From: Archangium gephyra
Lineage (GTDB): Bacteria > Myxococcota > Myxococcia > Myxococcales > Myxococcaceae
DNA length: 64,000 bases
Direction of reading: 5' to 3'
Assembly (NCBI RefSeq): GCF_001027285.1
Contig: NZ_CP011509.1
Location: 4,410,501 to 4,474,500, forward strand
Shown here: positions 17,396-32,466 of the stretch, one piece after another
Layout: each line of letters starts with the position of its first letter
Numbering within the stretch: position 1 is the first letter of the stretch
Made by a program: the position numbers and the translations under genes
Notes under the pieces: model-generated
What the model saw: only the letters and a program-made list of their open reading frames with translations
Database searches by the model: none
What the model was told of the DNA's origin: nothing

Positions 17396-19215
17396 ATGCT
17401 CTGGAGGGATTGAAGGTGAACGCACCGGAGGGCCTCAAGGGCCTGTCGGTGTGGACCACGCAGCCGTCCTGGCTGGGGGGCCTGGTGGGGCTGGGGCTGG
17501 CGCTGTTCTACGGCAAGCTCACGTACTCGGTGCCCGAGGGCCGTGGCTGGCTCTTCCTGGGGTTGTTGCTGGCGGCGCTGGTGATGAACGCCGTGCTGTC
17601 CGGCGCCCAGGAGCGTCACGCGCTGCGCGTGCTGCGGGCGGTGGAGCAGGGGCGGTTGCCGGCCAATCCGGACAACCTGCGCCGCGCGCTCCAGGAGGTC
17701 CGCCGCATTCCCGGCCGCTGCTTCTGGTTCACGCTCCAGGGGTGGCTGGGGGGAGCGCTGATGCTGGCGGTGACGTTCCCGCCCCTGGCCCAGGCCCCGT
17801 GGAGCACGGGGATGCGCATCGTCCTGGTGGGCCTGTCGATCGGCCCGCTGTCCTCCATGCTCGTCTACCTCATGGTGGTCCGCCGGGGCCGCCGGGCCTC
17901 CGAGCGCATCGCCGCGCAGGGCCTGTCCCCGCAGGAGGTCATCGCCGCGCTTCCCGCCGAGCGGCTGCGGCTGCGGCGCCGGCTGGTGATGTTCACCGCG
18001 GTGGCGGTGCTCAGCCCGTCCATCTTCATCCTCGATGTGTCGGTGAGCCGCACGCTGAGCACCGTGGATCAGCTCCTGGATGCGAGGGGGGCGCCCGCGG
18101 TGCAGCAGAAGGTGGTGCACAACGCGCGCAAGGCCACCGGCAAGCCGTTGGTGGTGCTGGCCGCGCTGGTGGTGCTGCTGGTGGTGGGCACGGCGTACGT
18201 GGCGGGCACGGCGCTGGCCGAGCCCCTGCGCGCCCTGTCCGAGGACGCCACCCGCATCGCCCAGGGCGAGGTGCGCACCCCGCGCTTCATCCCCGCCGAG
18301 GACGAGGTGTGGGCCGTGTCCGGTGCCTTCACGCGCATGCAGGCCCAGCTGGCCCAGGCGCTCGTGCAGCTGCAGCGCGCGGGACTGCAGATCTCCTCCA
18401 CCACCGAGCAGCTGGTGGCCACCTCGGCGGACCAGGAGTCCGGAGCGGGGGAGCAGGCCATCTCGCTCAACGAGACGCGGGCCACCACCGAGGAGCTGGC
18501 GCGCTCGGCGCAGCAGATCGCCGTCAACGCCGAGTCGGTGTCCACCATGGCGGAGACGACCTTCGGGGCGGCGCAGAGCGGGCAGCGCAGCGCGGCGGCC
18601 TTCCTCGCGGCCATGCACCGCATGAAGGCGGACAACCAGGGCATCGCCGATGCCGTGGTGCGGCTCAACAAGCGGGTGCAGCAGATCGGCAAGGTGGTGG
18701 AGTTCATCAACGAGATCGCCGACAAGTCGGACCTGCTGGCGCTCAACGCCGAGCTGGAGGGCACCAAGGCGGGCGAGCCCGGCCGGGGCTTCTCGCTGGT
18801 GGCCGCGGAGATGCGCCGCCTGGCGGAGAACGTGCTGTCCTCCACCCTGGCCATCGAGCGGCTCATCGACGAAATCCGTGACGCCACCCAGGCGGCGGTG
18901 ATGGCCACCGAGGCCGGTTTGAAGACGACGGAGCGCGGCGCCTCCCTGGCGGCGCAGGTGGACCAGAGCCTGGGCCTCATCCTCGAGCTGGCGCGGCAGA
19001 CGTCCCACGCCGTGCGCTCCATCTCCCTGGCCACCCAGCAGCAGCAGACGGGCACGGATCAGCTCGCCGCGGCCATGGGAGACATCCTGCGCGTCACCGA
19101 GGAGAACGCCGAGGCCACCCAGCAGATGGTGGCGGCCAACACGGACCTGTCCGCGCTGGCGAGGGACTTGAAGGCCACGGTGCAACGCTTCCGCGTGGCC
19201 GAGAGGGAGGGGTGA
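17392..19215 (+). CDS. Methyl-accepting chemotaxis protein, 6-TM (first of tandem pair)
   Basis: A 607-residue receptor with six N-terminal hydrophobic helices (about 25-270) and no periplasmic ligand domain. A HAMP-like linker (LSEDATRIAQGEV...IPAEDEVWAVSGAF) leads into the cytoplasmic signalling coiled coil. The tip reads LLALNAELEGTKAGEPGRGF instead of the usual ALNAAIEAARAGE. The ATG overlaps the previous stop (ATGA). It is most similar to the next gene, and the two are tandem paralogs. Sensing probably occurs within the membrane or through a partner such as the upstream lipoprotein. Confidence 0.9.
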   Translation: MNALEGLKVNAPEGLKGLSVWTTQPSWLGGLVGLGLALFYGKLTYSVPEGRGWLFLGLLLAALVMNAVLSGAQERHALRVLRAVEQGRLPANPDNLRRALQEVRRIPGRCFWFTLQGWLGGALMLAVTFPPLAQAPWSTGMRIVLVGLSIGPLSSMLVYLMVVRRGRRASERIAAQGLSPQEVIAALPAERLRLRRRLVMFTAVAVLSPSIFILDVSVSRTLSTVDQLLDARGAPAVQQKVVHNARKATGKPLVVLAALVVLLVVGTAYVAGTALAEPLRALSEDATRIAQGEVRTPRFIPAEDEVWAVSGAFTRMQAQLAQALVQLQRAGLQISSTTEQLVATSADQESGAGEQAISLNETRATTEELARSAQQIAVNAESVSTMAETTFGAAQSGQRSAAAFLAAMHRMKADNQGIADAVVRLNKRVQQIGKVVEFINEIADKSDLLALNAELEGTKAGEPGRGFSLVAAEMRRLAENVLSSTLAIERLIDEIRDATQAAVMATEAGLKTTERGASLAAQVDQSLGLILELARQTSHAVRSISLATQQQQTGTDQLAAAMGDILRVTEENAEATQQMVAANTDLSALARDLKATVQRFRVAEREG

Positions 19216-21035
19216 TGCGGACCCCGCGCTTCCTGCGTTACCGGCGTCCCTTCAGCCGCCGCCTGGTGATGGCGGTCGCCTACGCCAACCTCACCACCTC
19301 CATCCTCAGCGGGCGCTATGCCCAGCTCACCATCGGCGAGCGGCTGGATGACAGCCTGCCGCTGTTCCTCAAGCTGATGGGGGTGTTCTCCTGTACCGCC
19401 ATCGTGGTGCAGGCGGTGCTCTGCCTGCGCCGGCTGCGGGGGCTGCTCGAGGTGGAGGCCGCGGAAGGACCGAGCCAGCCGGAGCAGCTCGGCCAGGCGC
19501 TGCGGGAGGTCCACGGCCTCGCCGACTTCACCTTCGTCTCCACGCTGGCGATGTGGCTGCTCACCTCCGTCCTCGTCAACCTGGGGCTGTGGGTGAGCGG
19601 CGCGTCCAACGGCCTGCTGGAGGCGCTGCGCATCGGCCTGCCGGGGCTGCTCTTCGGTCCGCTCTCCGCGCTGCTGACGTACTGCATCGTCACGCTGCGG
19701 GCCCGGCGCGTGGTGCTGGACATGGGCCCCCTGGGCCTGACGCCCGAGCTGGCCATCTCCGTGGCGCCCCGGCGCTCGCAGATCCGCCTGCGGCTGAGCC
19801 TCTTCACCGCCATCGTCGTGGTGACGCCCGCGGCGCTCATCTGGGACGTGAGCTATTCGCTGGCCAACCGGGCCTTCGATCAGATGCTGGCCGAGGCCGA
19901 TCCGAAGCTGCAGGAGCAGCTGGCCGAGACACTGCGCACCGAGGCGCTGTGGTCCGGCGGCGCGCTGTGTCTGCTCGTCTTCGGAGTGGCCCTGGCCGCG
20001 GCCTACCTGGGCGGCACGCTGCTGGGCCGTCCCATGCGCCAGCTGGGCGAGGACGCCCACCGCATCGCCGAGGGAGACCTGAGCCGCCCGCGCGTCATCC
20101 CCGCCGAGGACGAGGTGTGGTCCGTCTCCGCCGCCTTCTCCACCATGCGGGCCCACCTGGCGGACGTGCTGGCGCAGCTGCAGCGCGCCGGCTACCGCAT
20201 CGGCACCACCACCGAGGAGATCCTCTCCACCTCCTCGCGCTACGAGGCCGGTGCCGCCGAGCAGGCCAGCTCGCTGGACGAGACGAGCGCCACCACCGAG
20301 GAGCTGGCGCGCTCGGCCCGGCAGATCGCCGAGAACGCGGGCTCGGTGGCGGAGATCGCCCACAAGACGCTCGCGGCGGCCCGCCAGGGCCAGGCCAGCG
20401 CCGAGGCCTTCCTGGAGACGATGAACCGCATGCGCCACGACAACCAGGCCATCGCCACCGCGGTGGCCCGGTTGAACAAGCGTGTGCAGCAGATTGGAAA
20501 GATCGTCGAGTTCATCAACGGCGTGGCCGACAAGTCGGATCTGCTCGCGCTCAACGCCGAGCTGGAGGGCACCAAGGCGGGCGAGGTGGGGCAGGGCTTC
20601 TCGCTGGTGGCCGCGGAGATGCGCCGCCTGGCGGAGAACGTCATCGAGTCCACCAAGGAGATCGAAGGGCTCATCGAGGAGGTGCAGGACGCCTCGGGCG
20701 GCGCGGTGATGGCCACCGAGGGCGGTGTGCGCGCCACCGAGACGGGCACCTCGCTGGCGCAGCAGGTCTCCGAGTCGCTGCGGCAGATCGTCGAGCTGGC
20801 CGGGCGCACGTCGGACGCGGTGCGGGCCATCTCGCTGGCCACGCAGCAGCAGCAGGGCGGAACGGATCTGCTCGCCGAGGCCATGGCGGACATCCTGCGC
20901 ATCACCCAGCAGAGCCACAACGCCACCAAGCAGGTCATCGGCGCCAATGGAGACCTCTCCACGCTGGCGCGTGACTTGAGAGGGGTGGTGGAGCGCTTCC
21001 AGATCGATCCACCCGCGCCAGGGGGCAAGGTGTGA
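19215..21035 (+). CDS. Methyl-accepting chemotaxis protein, 6-TM (second of tandem pair)
   Basis: A 606-residue paralog of the preceding receptor, with the same order: six hydrophobic helices, HAMP-like IPAEDEVWSVSAAF, then the signalling domain with the same altered tip (LLALNAELEGTKAGEVGQGF). It starts at ATG 19215 in TGATG, sharing one base with the previous stop. A GTG at 19212 is in frame. The pair matches the two receptors of the M. xanthus Che3 cluster. Differences between the two are concentrated in the membrane part, which suggests different inputs feeding one kinase. Confidence 0.9.
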   Translation: MRTPRFLRYRRPFSRRLVMAVAYANLTTSILSGRYAQLTIGERLDDSLPLFLKLMGVFSCTAIVVQAVLCLRRLRGLLEVEAAEGPSQPEQLGQALREVHGLADFTFVSTLAMWLLTSVLVNLGLWVSGASNGLLEALRIGLPGLLFGPLSALLTYCIVTLRARRVVLDMGPLGLTPELAISVAPRRSQIRLRLSLFTAIVVVTPAALIWDVSYSLANRAFDQMLAEADPKLQEQLAETLRTEALWSGGALCLLVFGVALAAAYLGGTLLGRPMRQLGEDAHRIAEGDLSRPRVIPAEDEVWSVSAAFSTMRAHLADVLAQLQRAGYRIGTTTEEILSTSSRYEAGAAEQASSLDETSATTEELARSARQIAENAGSVAEIAHKTLAAARQGQASAEAFLETMNRMRHDNQAIATAVARLNKRVQQIGKIVEFINGVADKSDLLALNAELEGTKAGEVGQGFSLVAAEMRRLAENVIESTKEIEGLIEEVQDASGGAVMATEGGVRATETGTSLAQQVSESLRQIVELAGRTSDAVRAISLATQQQQGGTDLLAEAMADILRITQQSHNATKQVIGANGDLSTLARDLRGVVERFQIDPPAPGGKV

Positions 21036-23506
21036 GCGCGCGGGAGAAGCTGCTCAAGCAATTCCGGGAGCTGGTGGGGGTGCGCCTGGAGCGCATCAAC
21101 CGCCGCATCGTGGAGCTGGAGGCGGGCGCGAGCCTGGAGGCCGGCCGCACCGTGCTGCGCGAGCTGCACGGGCTCAAGGGCGAGGCCCGGATGATGGGCT
21201 TCGACGCCATCAACTCCGTCGTGCACGAGATGGAGGAGCTGGTGCGCTCCACCGAGCGCGCCGAGCATGCGATGTCCGCCGGCTCCATCGACGCGCTGCT
21301 GCATGCCGGGGACGCGGTGCTGGTGCTGGCCGGGGCCTCGCCCGAGCCGGCCCAGACGCCCCCCGAGGTGGGCAAGCTGGTGCGCTGGCTGCAGGACTGC
21401 ACCCGCGCCGAGGTCTCCGGCCAGCCGGTGCCCGCGCCCGCCCCGAGTCCGGCGTCCCCTCCGGTCTCCCGAGGCGAGCCCGCGGCGGCCCCGGCGCGCA
21501 AGGAGGCCCAGGAGAAGGAGCGGGACGAGCGGGAGGAGGTCACCCCCGCGTGGGGCTCGGCTCCGCTGAACGTCATGGTGTCCTCGCTGGTGTCCCGGCA
21601 GGCGCCGCCCCCGCCGCCACCCCCCGTGGCGTCCCCTCCGGCGCGGCCTCCCCTGGTGGGCCGCTCGGTGCCGGTGGAGCCTCCGCGCGCGCAGGCTTCC
21701 GCGACGGTCACCGCCACCACCACCATCAGCCGGATGCCGCCGGCCACGCCCGAGGTACCGCTGCGGACGGGCTCGGCGCCGGGGGTGCGCGCGGGAGACC
21801 GTGCGGACGGCTCGGTGCGCATCGGCGTGGCCAGCCTGGATCTGCTCACGAGCGCGGTGACGAACCTCACCCAGGTGTCGCGCCGCCGCGAGCTGGCCAC
21901 CACCCGCCGCCTGGAGCTGGCGCGGGAGCTGAGCCTGCTGGCGCGGGCCGCGGAGGACCTGGGGCCGGCGGCCGCCGCGCTCTCGGAGCGGCTCGGCAAG
22001 GCGAAGGAGCTGGCCGCCGCCCTGCACCGCGAGGCGAAGCTGCTGGCCAACGAGGAGCTGCGCGACCTGGGCTACGTGGCCGACGAGGTGCAGCGCCTGC
22101 GCATGCTGCCGCTCTCCGTCCTCTTCGAGCCCTACCCGCGCATGGTGCGGGACCTGGCGCGCGAGCTGGGCAAGGAAGTGGAGCTGGTGGTGGACGGCGA
22201 GGACACCCGCGCCGACCGGGCGGTGGTGGAGGCGCTGAGGGATCCCCTGCTGCACCTGGTGCGCAACGCGCTGGACCACGGGCTGGAGTCGCGGGTGGAC
22301 CGGGTGGCCACCGGCAAGCACCCGCGCGGACGGCTGACGCTGGGGGCCGCGCGTGACGGCAACCGGCTGGTGCTGCGGGTGGAGGACGACGGCGTGGGCC
22401 TGGAGCCCGTGCTGCTGCGCCGGGCGGCGGTGCGCAAGGGCTTCCTCGACGAGGCCTCGGCATCGGCGTTGACGGATCAGGCGGCGCGCGAGCTCATCTT
22501 CCTCTCGGGCTTCACCTCGCGCGAGGTGGCCACGGACATCTCCGGGCGGGGCGTGGGGCTGGACGCGGTGCGCAGCTCGCTCCGGGCGCTGGGAGGAGAC
22601 GTGCTGGTGGCCTCCACGCCGGGCGGGGGCACGCGCTTCGAGCTGCGGGTGCCGGTGTCCCTCACCGTGTCTCCGCTGCTCTTCGTGAAGGTGGCCGAGG
22701 AGACGCTCTGCCTGAGTGCCGTCCACGTCTCGCGGGCGGTGAAGGTGGAGGCCTCGCAGATCCGCGAGGTGGCCGGGCGCGCGGTGCTGCAGGTGGATGA
22801 GCAGCCCATGCCCTTCGCCTCGCTGGGGGCGCTGCTCGGGCTGGGGCCGGAGGAGGTGGCGGACGAGGGAGCCCTGGTGCTGGTGGTGCGCAGCCAGGGG
22901 GCCACGGCCGCGCTGGCGGTGGACCGCGTCCTGGAGGAGAGCGTCCAGGCCATCCTGCCGCTGAAGGGGCTGCTGGGGCGCTTCCCCCACCTCACGGGCG
23001 CCACCACGCTGGCGGACGGACGGCTCGCCATGGTGCTCTCGGCGGCCCACCTCATCGCCAGCGCCCAGGGCGCCATGGGCCTGCGGGTGCCCCGGGCGCC
23101 CGCCGCCGCCCGTCCGCCTGCCGCTCCCCGCCGCCGGATCCTCGTGGTGGACGACTCCCCCCTCACCCGGGAGCTGATCGGCTCCCTGCTGGAGGCCGTG
23201 GGGTACGACGTCATCATGGCCACCGACGGCATGGAGGCCCTGGACATGCTCAACGCGGCCCCCAATGGTCCCAGGGTGGACCTGGTCTGCACGGACCTGG
23301 AGATGCCCCGGGTGGACGGGTTGGAGCTGACCCGCCGGCTCAAGGCCCATGCGACCCACAAGGTCCTCCCGGTGGTCATCCTCACCACGCGTGGGGGAGA
23401 GGAGGACCGGCAGCGCGGGTTGGCGGCGGGGGCGGACGGCTACATCACCAAGGGTGACCTGGTGCGTCAGGATCTGGTGGACGTGGTGGGCCGTCTCCTG
23501 GGCTGA
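21032..23506 (+). CDS. cheA: CheA histidine kinase with C-terminal receiver
   Basis: An 824-residue hybrid CheA. The Hpt domain has phospho-acceptor His46 (LRELHGLKGEARMMGF). A ~120-residue Pro-rich linker follows, then dimerisation helices and the HATPase domain (N box HLVRNALDHGLES; G boxes VEDDGVGL and DISGRGVGLDAVRSSL). A CheW-like regulatory domain comes next, and a receiver domain (from ~703) has Asp755 (VCTDLEMPRVDG). No P2 CheY-binding domain is evident. The start is GTG 21032, overlapping the MCP stop (GTGA). With no separate CheY in the cluster, the fused receiver may act as sink or output. Che3 of M. xanthus has the same arrangement. Confidence 0.92.
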   Translation: MSAREKLLKQFRELVGVRLERINRRIVELEAGASLEAGRTVLRELHGLKGEARMMGFDAINSVVHEMEELVRSTERAEHAMSAGSIDALLHAGDAVLVLAGASPEPAQTPPEVGKLVRWLQDCTRAEVSGQPVPAPAPSPASPPVSRGEPAAAPARKEAQEKERDEREEVTPAWGSAPLNVMVSSLVSRQAPPPPPPPVASPPARPPLVGRSVPVEPPRAQASATVTATTTISRMPPATPEVPLRTGSAPGVRAGDRADGSVRIGVASLDLLTSAVTNLTQVSRRRELATTRRLELARELSLLARAAEDLGPAAAALSERLGKAKELAAALHREAKLLANEELRDLGYVADEVQRLRMLPLSVLFEPYPRMVRDLARELGKEVELVVDGEDTRADRAVVEALRDPLLHLVRNALDHGLESRVDRVATGKHPRGRLTLGAARDGNRLVLRVEDDGVGLEPVLLRRAAVRKGFLDEASASALTDQAARELIFLSGFTSREVATDISGRGVGLDAVRSSLRALGGDVLVASTPGGGTRFELRVPVSLTVSPLLFVKVAEETLCLSAVHVSRAVKVEASQIREVAGRAVLQVDEQPMPFASLGALLGLGPEEVADEGALVLVVRSQGATAALAVDRVLEESVQAILPLKGLLGRFPHLTGATTLADGRLAMVLSAAHLIASAQGAMGLRVPRAPAAARPPAAPRRRILVVDDSPLTRELIGSLLEAVGYDVIMATDGMEALDMLNAAPNGPRVDLVCTDLEMPRVDGLELTRRLKAHATHKVLPVVILTTRGGEEDRQRGLAAGADGYITKGDLVRQDLVDVVGRLLG

Positions 23507-23575
23507 CATGCGCCTGCGGGACAGTGGGCCCAATTGGGTATACTCGGGGCGTCGCGCACGGGGTATGGAAGCCAC

Positions 23576-24643
23576 ATGGGCAAGAAAGTGTCAGTGCTGG
23601 TCGTTGACGACTCGCACATCTGCCGACAGCTGATCTGCGAAGCTCTGGGCCGGGATCCGGACCTGGAGGTTGTCGGGACTTGCGCCAACGGCAAGGAGGC
23701 GCTGGAGGCCGCGCGAGAGCTGCGTCCACAGGTCATCACCATGGACGTGGAGATGCCGGTGATGGATGGGCTCACGGCCGTGGAGCACATCATGGCCGAG
23801 GTGCCCACGCCCATCCTCATGCTGACGGCGGATCCTCGCCAGCAGGCGCCGGAGCTGACGTGCCGGGCGCTGGAGCTGGGCGCGCTGGCCTTGCAGATCA
23901 AGCCCGCCATCGACGCGGGCACCGAGGCGTGGAACCTGTCGCGCGAGGTGAAGCTGCTGTCCTCGGTGCGTGTCATCCGGCACATCCACAACAGCAAGCG
24001 CCGGCCGCCGTTGCCGGGCGCGGGTGGGGCGGTGGCGCCCGCGCCGGTGGTGGGCATGCCGTACGGGGTGCTGGCGGTGGCCAGCTCCACCGGTGGCCCG
24101 CAGGTCCTCTTCCGGATGCTCTCGGAGCTGCCGGCGGACTTCCCCACGCCCATCGTCATCGTCCAGCACATCAACGCCGCCTTCTCCGAGTCGCTGGCGG
24201 GCTGGCTGGCCAACTCCTCGAAGCTCAAGGTGCGGCTGGCCACGGACGGCGAGCAGCTGCTGCCGGGCAACGTGCTGATCGCCCCGCCGGGGCAGCACAT
24301 GTCCATTCCCTTCCGGGGGCGCGTGGCGCTGCGGCCGGGGGTGGAGCGGGACGGGCACATGCCCTCGGGCACGGTGCTGCTGGAGAGCGCGGCCAAGGCC
24401 TACGGGCGGCGCACGCTGGGGCTCATCCTCACCGGCATGGGCGAGGACGGGGCGGACGGCATGCTCGCCATCAAGCAGGCCGGTGGCCTGACGCTGGCGC
24501 AGAACGAGGAGTCGTGCGTGGTGTTCGGCATGCCGGGCGCGTCGGTGGCGCGCAAGGCGGTGGATCACCTCGTCCACGGTGACGACATCGCGGGAGCGCT
24601 GGTGCGGCTCGCCCGGGGTGAGTCGCTCACCGCGGGGCGTTGA
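23576..24643 (+). CDS. cheB: CheB methylesterase/response regulator
   Basis: A 355-residue two-domain CheB. The receiver is [14 protein letters not shown] with [13 protein letters not shown]. The methylesterase has the Ser in ASSTGGPQ (about residue 170), the His in IVQHIN and the Asp in [11 protein letters not shown]. It demethylates the receptors in adaptation. The start is ATG 23576 ([12 protein letters not shown]); a longer in-frame start at 23534 lacks similarity. It follows cheA by 69 nt and precedes cheR by 6 nt. Confidence 0.92.
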
Positions 24644-24649
24644 GCGCAG

Positions 24650-26023
24650 GTGGCTCCTCCCACCTTCCCGCTGGCCTCCAGTCCCTTCCACGCCTTCGTG
24701 GCGCGGCGGACGGGCATGGCCTTGAGTGATCTGCAATGCCGCCGGCTCGACGAGAAGCTGACGGCACGGCCGGGCGGGCTGAGTCCGCAGTACCTGCTGC
24801 ACCTGCAGACGCCCGCGGGCGCGGCGGACCTGGCCGAGCTCATCGACGCCATCTCCGTGCAGAAGACGGAGCTCTTCCGGGACGAGTCGCAGCTGGCGGC
24901 GCTGCGCGCGCACGTGCTGGAGCCGATGGTGGCGAGGATGCGCCGGCCGCTGCGGGTGTGGAGCGCCGGCTGCGCCACGGGCGAGGAGGTGGCCACGCTG
25001 CTGGTGCTGCTCGCCGAGGTGGGGGCGGATGCCTCCAGCACGGTGCTGGGCACGGACATTTCGGAGACGGCCATCACGCGGGCGCGGGAGCTGTGCTTCA
25101 GCGCGGAGCAGTTGCAGCGGGTGCCCTCGGGGATGCGCGAGCGCTGGTTCCTTCCCGCGGGCGGGGGCCGCTACACGCTGGTGGGGCACCTGAAGGAGCG
25201 GGCCAGCTTCGAGTGCCACAACCTGATGGATCTGCCGTACCCGACGGCGGCGGAGGGGCAGGGCTTCGACATCATCGTCTGCCGCAACGTCCTCATCTAC
25301 TTCGCCTCCGAGTCCTTCGAGCGGGTGGTGGCGTCGCTGGCGGGGCGGTTGGCCCCCGAGGGCATGTTGGTGCTTTCCGCGGCCGAGCCGCTGCTGCGCA
25401 CGCCGCCGACGCTGCGCACCGTGCGCTTCGAGCAGGCCTTCTTCTACGCGCGGGCGCAGGAGGCCATGGCCTTCACCGACGCGTCTCCGCCCGGGGCCCC
25501 GAGGACGCCGAGCTCCAGTGGACTGCCCGCGGTGGGCACCCGCCAGCCGCTGCCCAGGACGCCGAGCTCCAGTGGACTGCCCGCGGTGGGCGCCTCGCCC
25601 GCGCTGCGGACCGCGACGTCGGGCCGCTTCCCGGCGATCACGGCTCCGCCCAGGCCGGAGGCTCCCACCGAGGTGCGGCCCGGGGATGCCGGCGCGCACA
25701 CGGAGGCGGATGCCCTCTTCGCGAAGGTGCTGGAGTGGGCCTCCTCGGGAGGCGAGGCGAGCCCCCAGACGGCGGAGGCGCTGCGGCACTGCCTCGCGTT
25801 GGATCCCGACCTGTCCGCGGCGCGCTACCTGCTGGGGATGTTGCTCGAGCAGCGGGGCGCGCCCGCCGAGGCCGCCGTGGAGTACCGGCGGGCCCTGCGC
25901 TCGCTGGAGGAGGGGAGGGCGCGCAACACTCCCTTCTTCCTCAACAACGCCCGGCTCCAGGTGGCCTGTGCGCGCGCCATCGAGCGGGTGGAGCGGGGCC
26001 CCGGTCCGCCCCCGGCGCGTTGA
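24650..26023 (+). CDS. cheR: CheR methyltransferase with TPR-like C-terminus
   Basis: A 457-residue receptor methyltransferase. The CheR domain has the SAM motif VWSAGCATGEEVATLL, LGTDISETAI, and IIVCRNVLIYF with the catalytic-site Arg/Asn. After ~280 residues comes a Pro/Ser linker containing the exact duplication RTPSSSGLPAVG twice. A C-terminal TPR-like region follows (LRHCLALDPDLSAARYLLG, EAAVEYRRALRSLEEG). CheR-TPR fusions are common where methylation feeds non-motility pathways. The start is GTG 24650. It is the last gene of the che operon. Confidence 0.92.
   Translation: MAPPTFPLASSPFHAFVARRTGMALSDLQCRRLDEKLTARPGGLSPQYLLHLQTPAGAADLAELIDAISVQKTELFRDESQLAALRAHVLEPMVARMRRPLRVWSAGCATGEEVATLLVLLAEVGADASSTVLGTDISETAITRARELCFSAEQLQRVPSGMRERWFLPAGGGRYTLVGHLKERASFECHNLMDLPYPTAAEGQGFDIIVCRNVLIYFASESFERVVASLAGRLAPEGMLVLSAAEPLLRTPPTLRTVRFEQAFFYARAQEAMAFTDASPPGAPRTPSSSGLPAVGTRQPLPRTPSSSGLPAVGASPALRTATSGRFPAITAPPRPEAPTEVRPGDAGAHTEADALFAKVLEWASSGGEASPQTAEALRHCLALDPDLSAARYLLGMLLEQRGAPAEAAVEYRRALRSLEEGRARNTPFFLNNARLQVACARAIERVERGPGPPPAR
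25502..25591 (+). repeat. 36-bp exact direct repeat in the cheR linker
   Basis: The same 36-bp sequence (beginning AGGACGCCGAGC, ending GCGGTGGGC) occurs at 25502-25537 and 25556-25591. It encodes two copies of RTPSSSGLPAVG in the disordered linker. This looks like a recent in-frame duplication. Confidence 0.85.
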
Positions 26024-26099: not shown

Positions 26100-26963
26100 A
26101 TGCGAAGGCTTGCCCTGATCGCCCTCCCGCTCGCGCTCTCCGGCTGCTTCTACCCCGCCGACCGCGGCCGCGCCCTGGAGACCCGTCTCGAGAAGCTCGA
26201 TGCCTCCCAGGCCCAGCTCCAGGCGGAGCTGAGGCAGACCCGTGAGCAGCTCGACGCCACGCTGCCGAAGATCGACGCGAAGATCGCCGAGGTCTCCAAG
26301 GCCCTGCAGGGCCTGGACACGGCCTCGCGCCGCTCGGGCGCGGACATCGGCATCCAGCTGCAGAAGACGGTGGAGGACCTGGCCCAGCTGCGCGGCCAGG
26401 TGGAGACGTACCTCTACAAGATTGGCGAGCTGGAGGGCGCGCTCACCAAGACGAGCGAGGAGACGGAGAAGCGGCTGCAGGCGCTCAAGGGCGACGAGGC
26501 CCTCAAGGAAGCCGAGGCCCGCAAGAAGGCCGAGGAGCTGAAGCGGCCCACGGACAAGAAGGAGTTCCTCGCGCTGGCCGAGGAGAAGGCCAAGGGCGGC
26601 GACGTGGCCGTGGCCCGGCAGCTCTACTCGGAGTTCCTCAAGAAGTGGCCCAAGGACGCGCTGGCCGCCGAGGCCCACTTCGGCCTGGGGGAGACGTACT
26701 TCACCGAGGACAAGTGCCGCGAGGCCCTCTACGAGTACGGCAAGCTGCTGCAGGAGCACCCCAAGGCGGACTCCACGCCGAACGCGTACCTGCGCTCGTC
26801 CGAGTGCTTCAAGAAGCTGAAGATGCAGGAGGAGTCGCGGCTGGCGCTCGAGGAGCTCGTGAAGGGCTACCCGAAGTCGGACGCGGCCAAGACGGCCAAG
26901 GCGCGCCTGGCCGAGCTGGACAAGGCGAAGAAGGCCGAGTCGAAGAAGGGTGGCAAGAAGTGA
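26100..26963 (+). CDS. YbgF/CpoB-like coiled-coil TPR lipoprotein
   Basis: A 287-residue lipoprotein: the signal ends in the lipobox ALSGC. Residues ~25-165 are a long Lys/Glu/Gln-rich coiled coil. The C-terminal ~115 residues are three TPR-like repeats of the YbgF (CpoB) type (RQLYSEFLKKWPKDALAAEA, EALYEYGKLLQEHPKADSTP). YbgF works with Tol-Pal in envelope constriction; here the tol genes are not adjacent. The stop codon overlaps the GTG start of the next gene (GTGA), suggesting coupled expression with the putative selenoprotein. Confidence 0.85.
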   Translation: MRRLALIALPLALSGCFYPADRGRALETRLEKLDASQAQLQAELRQTREQLDATLPKIDAKIAEVSKALQGLDTASRRSGADIGIQLQKTVEDLAQLRGQVETYLYKIGELEGALTKTSEETEKRLQALKGDEALKEAEARKKAEELKRPTDKKEFLALAEEKAKGGDVAVARQLYSEFLKKWPKDALAAEAHFGLGETYFTEDKCREALYEYGKLLQEHPKADSTPNAYLRSSECFKKLKMQEESRLALEELVKGYPKSDAAKTAKARLAELDKAKKAESKKGGKK

Positions 26964-28072
26964 TCGTGCGTCTGATGCTGGCCGTGCTCGCGCTGCTGCT
27001 GTCGCCCGGGGTGGCGGACGCGGCGCCCAGGGACGTGGTCCTCCTCTTCACCGGAGACAACGGGGGCGAGATCGCCCCCTGTGGTTGACGCCACAACCCG
27101 TCTGGCGGTCTGGCCAGACGAAAGACGGCCTTCTCGCAGGAGCGCGCGAAGGGTGGGCCGGTGCTGGTGCTGGATGCGGGCAATGCGCTCTTCAAATCCG
27201 CCGCGGCGGGGAGTGAGCCCAAGGAGAAGGAGCGGGCCGAGCTGCTGCTCGAGCTGATGGATGCCATGGGCACCACGGCCATGGCCGTGGGCGAGCGCGA
27301 CCTGACGCTCGGGACGGACTTCCTCACCCGGTCCTCGAAGGGCCGGAAGATGAAGCTCCTGTCCGCCAACCTGGTGGACGCGGCGGGCAAGCCGCTCTTC
27401 CCGGCCTCCATGTCGGTGACGGTGGGCGGCGTGAAGTTCGGCCTGGTGGGCCTCTCCCCGGAGGGGCCGGTCGCCACCCAGAAGGGGGCGGTGGGCAAGC
27501 CTCCGGTTCCGGCCGCCATCGCCGAGTCCCGCCGCTTGCGCACCCAGGAGAAGGTGGACGTGGTGGTGGTGCTCGCCGCCATGCCCTACGGCGAGGCCGT
27601 CAAGCTCTCCCAGGAAGCGGGCAACGCCGTGGACCTGATCCTCCAGTCGCACGACAGACGGGGCCAGGGCATGGCCCAGCGCAACGACTTCGCCACCCTC
27701 GTCCCCACGGGCGAGCGGGGGCGGGAGCTCGGCCAGCTGGCACTCTCCGTGGGGGGCAAGGGGCCCTTCGTGGACCTGTCGGAGGCGGACCGGGCCCAGC
27801 AGAACCTGAAGCTGCTCGACGCCAACCTCCAGCAGGCGCGGCAGAGCATGGCGGCGGCCAAGGACGAGCGGACCCGCAAGACGTGGGAGGAGACCATCGC
27901 CAGCTTCGAGGGGCGCCGGAAGGCCCTCGCACTGCAGGTGGACCCGGGCAAGCAGGGGGTCGAGCGCACCCTGCGTCTCTCGTTCATCCCCCTGGGAGGC
28001 AACATTCCGGACGACGCCGAGGTGAAGAAGCGCGTGGAGCGAATCGAACCCCCGGGGTCCGCATCTCACTAG
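26960..28072 (+). CDS. Putative secreted selenoprotein, UshA/5'-nucleotidase-like fold (in-frame TGA = Sec43)
   Basis: Read straight through a TGA at 27086-27088, this is one 370-residue protein. GTG 26960 overlaps the previous stop. A signal peptide (LMLAVLALLLSPGVADA) is followed by LLFTGDNGGEIAPCG-U-RHNPSGGLARRKT, and then LVLDAGNALF, AVGERDLTLG, KLLSANLVD, KFGLVGLSPEG and LILQSHDRRG. These track the metallophosphoesterase/5'-nucleotidase fold, but most metal ligands are replaced (DxH to DNG, GNHE to GERD, GHSH to QSHD), so it is probably not a phosphatase. The UGA falls where relatives, as I remember them, carry the second Cys of a PCGC-x(5)-GGLARR motif. An 18-nt spacer after the UGA leads to a SECIS-like hairpin. 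Alternatives are a nonsense pseudogene or a truncated gene starting at GTG 27161; the hairpin and intact downstream frame argue against both. Confidence 0.75.
27086..27120 (+). promoter_or_regulatory. Bacterial SECIS-like element after in-frame TGA
   Basis: The in-frame TGA (27086-27088) is followed by 18 nt and then the loop GGTCTG (27107-27112). The loop is closed by a perfect 8-bp stem: CGTCTGGC (27099-27106) with GCCAGACG (27113-27120). From memory, E. coli fdhF also has exactly 18 nt between UGA and its GGTCTG, with the GGUCU apical loop bound by SelB. The match in spacing, loop sequence and stem is what one expects of a SECIS element directing selenocysteine insertion. Confidence 0.75.
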
Positions 28073-31976: not shown

Positions 31977-32004
31977 GGCCAGCGCCCGCCCGGAGTCCCG
32001 GAGG

Positions 32005-32026
32005 GGGAGCGGCCCGTGCCGCTCCC
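32005..32026. terminator. Bidirectional terminator between sphingomyelinase and msrB
   Basis: GGGAGCGGC (32005-32013), loop CCGT, GCCGCTCCC (32018-32026): a perfect 9-bp stem with a tetraloop between convergent genes. Confidence 0.65.
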
Positions 32027-32043
32027 GTCCTTCCCCTGGCCGC

Positions 32044-32466
32044 TCACTTCGTGACGAGCTGGATGGGTTGCCCTTCCGGCACGTGCTTCATCGCCACTGA
32101 GTTCATGCAGTAGCGCAGCCCGGTGGGCGGCGGGCCATCCGGGAAGACGTGTCCCAGGTGGCCATCGCACCGGCCGCAGCGGACCTCGGTGCGCAGCATG
32201 CCGTACGAGCGATCCTGGTACTCCGTCACCGCGTCCGCCTGGAGGGGCTGGGTGAAGGAGGGCCAGCCGGTGCCGGACTCGAACTTCTCGCCGGACTTGA
32301 ACAGCGGGTTGCCGCAGCCGGCGCAGACGTACGTGCCGGGCGTCTTCGTCCCCAGGAAGCACCCGCTGCCGGGGCGCTCGGTACCATGGTGCCGCAGCAC
32401 CCGGTACTCGTCGGGCGTCAGGCGCTTGCTCCACTCCTCGTCACTGAGGATGAATTTGTCAGCCAT
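32044..32466 (-). CDS. msrB: Peptide-methionine (R)-S-oxide reductase
   Basis: A 140-residue MsrB that reduces methionine-R-sulfoxide in proteins. It has the two zinc-binding CxxC pairs ([11 protein letters not shown] and [14 protein letters not shown]), the substrate motif [10 protein letters not shown], and the catalytic RYCMNSVAM with Cys. It is full length for the family and cytoplasmic (no signal). The start is ATG 32466. Confidence 0.95.

Follow-up and report, generated by a model that had tools for sequence, protein, structure and literature searches.

Selenoproteins built on a UshA-like domain have been reported before. A 2008 GOS survey describes one as 'COG0737, UshA-like, CxU' (PMC2398784), and the UshA-like CxU family appears again in a 2026 prokaryotic selenoproteome list, the accessible part of which gives it no function (PMC13188914). 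Our literature search, which covered few subscription journals, found no biochemistry for the UshA-like CxU family and no paper on selenoproteins in myxobacteria. Two curated models describe proteins of this kind. Members of NF041198 (UshA_like_PCGU, 'UshA-like (seleno)protein') have PCGU or PCGC after strand 1 of a UshA-like domain, with Sec and Cys alternating at the last position, and the full-length members end in a cytochrome c domain with 3-4 haems; the full-length matches in our searches had a tail resembling cytochrome c554, with 3-4 CXXCH motifs in the protein. NF049981 (UshA_like_Sel_2) is likewise UshA-like, with its motif given as CxxU in the 2026 article (PMC13188914).

Within the window, the 64,000-nucleotide stretch of Archangium gephyra DNA analyzed here (source genome: 12,489,432 bp in one contig, C1), one forward-strand frame at 26960-28072 contains a single internal stop, TGA 27086-27088. 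Read through this codon, the gene starts at GTG 26960, ends at TAG 28070-28072, and encodes 370 amino acids with Sec at position 43 (...TGDNGGEIAPCG-U43-RHNPSGGLARRKT...). On the 5' side of the TGA lie a signal-peptide-like N terminus and then FTGDNGGEIAPCG; on the 3' side are RHNPSGGLARRKT and the remainder of the 327 codons that run up to TAG 28070. The putative signal peptide (26960-27025, + strand; about residues 1-22) consists of a hydrophobic run followed by an AxA-like site, and is proposed from the sequence, the alignment and a predicted helix at residues 2-13; in some distant relatives a lipobox-like Cys replaces the signal-peptide site in the alignment. The codons of the PCGU motif (Pro40, Cys41, Gly42 and Sec43) occupy 27077-27088 (+). 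As the initial annotation had anticipated of standard gene callers, a plain ORF listing returned a truncated protein of 303 aa (27161-28072), together with a fusion in an unrelated frame (26645-27088).

Compared with the curated models, the best match of the window protein was to NF041198, at 189.8 bits over profile positions 4-374 of 519, which does not reach the cut-off of 275; only 5 of the 195 Myxococcota genomes searched contained a protein above 275 bits. The window protein shares with NF041198 the motif after strand 1, the UshA-like domain and the Sec/Cys alternation, but it stops at position 374, and we found in it no CXXCH and no counterpart of the C-terminal multihaem region (profile positions ~375-519). 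Two paired long helices (residues 273-327; 27776-27940, +) lie near the point where full-length members of the known family run on into the haem c tail. NF049981 aligned in the N-terminal region around the Sec motif at 45.6 bits, below its cut-off of 140 and over ~90 residues. Because the window protein ends where the haem tail would begin, we conclude that the gene is a short, haem-less variant of the known UshA-like (CxU) selenoprotein family, which is itself not new. The curated model's cut-off misses this variant, and the plain ORF caller truncates it.

No Pfam family matched the window protein. A model built from 36 homologs (mean pLDDT 88, pTM 0.85) superimposed on the N-terminal domain of 5'-nucleotidases with Z 31.6 and 2.3 Å over 270 residues, and on SoxB with Z 30.4; across UshA, CD73 and SoxB, the shared N-terminal metallophosphatase domain (27029-27769, + strand, in our gene) matched with Z 30-32 and 2.3-2.9 Å over ~270 residues. 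Unlike these enzymes, the window protein lacks the C-terminal domain, has CxU after strand 1, and has lost most of the metal ligands and the catalytic His. The metal ligands of UshA are DxH, D, N, H and HxQ/H. Mapping them by profile alignment to 2z1a, guided by what is established for UshA, we found D33, G35, N75, E112, A207, H231 and R233 at the equivalent positions and R113 in place of the catalytic His. Thus, G35, N75, E112, A207 and R233 stand in place of the usual residue at five of seven ligand positions, and of the two-metal set (DxH, GD, GNH[ED], H, GHxH/Q) just D33 and H231 align with ligands; in the family alignment D33 is the sole invariant ligand-equivalent position and H231 is not conserved. 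The proposal in the initial annotation of a 5'-nucleotidase-like fold whose metal ligands are mostly lost therefore agrees with both comparisons. The Cys-Gly-Sec motif follows D33 by eight to ten residues, within the loop that comes after strand 1, although its predicted placement is approximate (residues 41-50, mean pLDDT 72).

With so few of the ligands left and Arg at the place of the catalytic His, the protein is unlikely to hydrolyze substrates by the two-metal route of these enzymes. The initial annotation had suggested a redox or metal-binding protein; we regard a redox role for Cys41 and Sec43 as the more probable function, by analogy and with no great assurance. The strongest alternative accepts that Sec is inserted and disputes just the redox part of our reading, leaving the exported selenoprotein untouched: the protein could still be a hydrolase, either a phosphoesterase or a SoxB-like sulfur hydrolase with Sec or Cys as metal ligand or nucleophile, or it could be a carrier of metal or selenium. 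The fold shared with 5'-nucleotidases and SoxB, the weak but consistent SoxB profile matches (E 1e-8 to 3e-15) and the invariance of Asp33 would fit such a role, whereas the altered metal site, the missing C-terminal nucleotide-binding domain and the electron transfer suggested by haem-fused relatives speak against it. We consider this alternative rather unlikely, if far from negligible.

The source genome encodes all four components sought after the initial annotation: a tRNA-Sec (C1:5552058-5552152; 73 bits against a cut-off of 47), selB (C1 2690322-2692232), selA (C1 7492343-7493662) and selD (C1 4081289-4082215). As a separate observation, selD has its own in-frame TGA (ELANCAG-U-AAKI; L065 1531-1533, C1 about 4081319), by which SelD of this genome is probably also a selenoprotein. 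We searched for homologs of the window gene in 59 relatives and then in 195 Myxococcota genomes. A full-length homolog whose single stop is TGA was found in 85 Myxococcota genomes, and nearly every Myxococcaceae genome searched has the Sec gene. This presence in dozens of independent genomes disposes of a sequencing error, which the initial annotation had named as a way for its reading to fail. selA was present in 84 of the 85 TGA genomes; the exception (G103, 80% complete) has a tRNA-Sec and a selB match. A TGA without selA was recorded for G029, whose genome is 87% complete. Conversely, selA was missing in four of the five genomes having only a non-TGA version (Fisher p about 1e-5 for co-occurrence of TGA and selA, phylogeny not corrected).

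In the genes read in detail, the TGA stood in PCGU or, in one distant case, ECGU, and where it was absent the codon was TGC or TGT, always Cys. C41, G42 and Sec/Cys43 are invariant in the family alignment. The statement in the initial annotation that relatives have PCGC at this position is borne out by TGC in homologs, two of them paralogs in the same genome. These paralogs carry HCGC at C1:8060743-8061849 (61% identical to the window protein) and PCGC at C1:11589740-11590843 (50% identical), with a TGC codon in both. A separate search of genome contigs for related loci used a Cys pattern and accordingly gave Cys forms only; the nearest named relatives in it were Archangium violaceum and A. 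lansinium. A third, haem-fused relative at C1:10192458-10194053 (L094 2459-4054) has PCGC, four CXXCH motifs and a tetraheme cytochrome c tail, and adjoins a LysM/transglycosylase-like gene. Elsewhere in the phylum, one genome that is 92% complete (G069, L107) has an in-frame TGA in PCGU together with a 4-CXXCH tail; tRNA-Sec was present there, and selA and selB were looked for and not found.

The clearest single replacement was found in a congener. In G125 (100% complete, two contigs), selA, selB and tRNA-Sec were all absent, whereas its congeners such as G126 have all three. The syntenic ortholog in G125 (L095 600-2900), with the same TPR gene upstream and L31 and methyltransferase genes downstream, has TGC at the codon position of the TGA. 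The next 12 amino acids, RHNPSGGLARRK, are the same as in a TGA congener; five of their codons are synonymously changed, and the hairpin is gone. Judged from these genome comparisons, G125 is a natural Sec-to-Cys replacement in a congener that lost the whole Sec pathway. In another genome (G017, L030; 92% complete), a Cys ortholog was accompanied by selA and selB, and tRNA-Sec was not found, which may reflect recent or ongoing loss of Sec use.

The hairpin missing from G125 lies at 27099-27120 (+) in the window gene. It has a perfect 8-bp stem (27099-27106/27113-27120) and a 6-nt loop, GGUCUG (27107-27112), which begins 18 nt from the TGA. Folded alone it reached -16.4 kcal/mol, against -10.5 for shuffles (z -2.4). 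The initial annotation had likened it to the E. coli fdhF element, and the MG1655 record, TGA-CACGGCCCATCGGTTGCA-GGTCTG-CACC, upholds the comparison: the spacing is 18 nt and the loop is identical in its six bases. The upper stem of E. coli fdhF contains a bulged U, in contrast to the perfect 8 bp here. The bSECIS model quoted in the 2026 article allows a loop of 3-9 nt with a G among its first two positions, a stem of 4-16 bp, a distance of 16-37 nt from the UGA and an MFE no higher than -7.5 kcal/mol (PMC13188914), and the window hairpin falls within every one of these limits (6-nt loop, 8 bp, 18 nt and -16.4 kcal/mol). Rfam at gathering score gave no match on the window, as expected for a hairpin this short.

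TGA-N18-GGTCT as a stand-alone signal was rejected, since 1.28 occurrences are expected per window by chance; the longer form, GGTCTGGCC, occurred twice in the genome against once for its reversed control. A local motif expected about once per window proves nothing by itself; what gives it weight is that it is conserved, that its stem covaries and that it occurs together with the Sec machinery. Of the 32 Sec genes, 31 had GGT at codon +7; the 13 Cys genes all had another codon there, and the codon usage of these genes would predict GGT in 5%; TCT, GGT, AGA and CGA were kept by Sec genes, while Cys genes mostly used other synonymous codons at those places. Compared with five relatives, the window gene shows zero synonymous changes over the 12 codons that follow the UGA, whereas flanking codons vary. 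Stem pairs in Sec genes averaged 7.2 of 8 against 5.2 expected under synonymous recoding, compared with 5.4 against 5.0 in Cys genes; such counts come from related sequences and hence are not probabilities. An alignment of 20 divergent sequences that share a 6-nt loop had pairing in 92.5% of its core cells, and 13 cells were double-changed versus 4.2 in shuffles. The covariation score was 0.320 against 0.145 for shuffles, none of 500 of which reached it, and slid controls stayed at or below 0.137; kinship inflates the pair and covariation counts, but the slid controls share the same kinship. In three Sec genes (L026, L034 and L049) the loop has 5 nt; these lie off the common register and were omitted from the second covariation test, and counting them in left the score higher than that of any shuffle. 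Several genera have lost outer stem pairs, leaving a 5-bp core. Because folding energy is weak evidence across the family (mean z -0.57 against synonymous recoding), we relied on stem pairing and codon choice. We take these comparisons to show that the hairpin is under selection in Sec genes, with compensatory changes present.

Conservation, machinery, Cys replacement and selection on the hairpin agree with the original proposal of a selenoprotein with an in-frame UGA, and from these sequence comparisons we regard UGA 27086-27088 as almost certainly recoded as Sec. The same evidence bears on two further alternatives. The UGA might be read as some other residue, such as Trp or Cys, by near-cognate suppression and without Sec machinery, a reading for which the open frame speaks and nothing more; we hold it to be highly improbable, as the TGA tracks selA across genomes, the replacing residue was always Cys in the genes read, and a hairpin with the loop and spacing of fdhF persists only alongside TGA. 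That the UGA is a real stop, through a pseudogene, a sequencing error or two products (a short peptide and a protein from GTG 27161), would match the two pieces of the mechanical ORF listing exactly but is hardly credible given that 85 genomes share a single TGA flanked by conserved protein sequence on either side, that codons after the UGA are unchanged beside neighboring codons that vary, and that a protein begun at 27161 would have neither signal peptide nor invariant PCG-GG-R block.

The GTG start of the selenoprotein gene overlaps the stop codon of the upstream gene by 4 nt. This gene (26100-26963, +) encodes a YbgF/CpoB-like TPR lipoprotein with an LSGC lipobox and a coiled coil plus TPR, and Pfam assigned it TPR_6, with weak YfiO and TolA_bind_tri matches. 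Among TGA orthologs with sufficient flanking sequence, nearly all those examined had a TPR gene directly 5'; so did the Cys orthologs in four genomes (G026, G017, G106 and G125) and a class-level relative with 33% identity (L104). Around the paralogs of the window's genome, the 2-7 kb of flank that we read showed no such gene. By lying beside orthologs and not paralogs, the TPR gene therefore marks the true ortholog line, and its persistence suggests that the TPR lipoprotein and the selenoprotein form a functional pair. No cytochrome gene was adjacent to the window locus. Farther upstream (window 19212-26023), ORF translations resemble a chemotaxis-type cluster (MCP, CheA-like, CheB-like and CheR with TPR). 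On the - strand at about 32000-32450, 4 kb downstream of the selenoprotein gene, an ORF with CAGC/CGRC zinc motifs and RYCMNS resembles methionine sulfoxide reductase B and would be a further redox gene.

We conclude that the gene very probably encodes an exported selenoprotein of the UshA-like kind. SelB with Sec-tRNA-Sec would read the UGA as Sec43, directed by the downstream hairpin, and the signal peptide would take the protein out of the cytoplasm. There, the metallophosphatase fold, with most of its two-metal-holding residues replaced, would serve as a scaffold, and the Cys41-Gly42-Sec43 loop, near Asp33 in the sequence, would most likely act as a selenol/thiol redox center in the cell envelope with the TPR lipoprotein of the same operon-like pair as its partner. 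Because longer relatives fuse the motif to a tetraheme cytochrome c, exchange of electrons with c-type cytochromes would be the most plausible route, and we put such a cytochrome partner forward tentatively.

Myxococcaceae are generally known as aerobes. The 2026 review states that aerobic bacteria seldom retain selenoproteins (PMC13188914), and against this rarity a predicted-secreted Sec protein has been kept in this aerobic group. Because Sec and Cys forms sit as paralogs in a single genome, and a complete congener has lost the Sec pathway, the group offers a natural experiment on what Sec gives the protein. Our broadest proposal, which we offer as a speculative possibility, is a selenium-dependent envelope redox system common to most aerobic Myxococcaceae. 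At its core would stand a protein without haem that carries Cys-Gly-Sec on a dead metallohydrolase fold; a TPR lipoprotein would be its partner, and paralogs with Cys or with a tetraheme fusion, encoded in the same genome, would back it up. If this is true, aerobes would in this case have retained selenocysteine almost without exception, for chemistry yet to be described.
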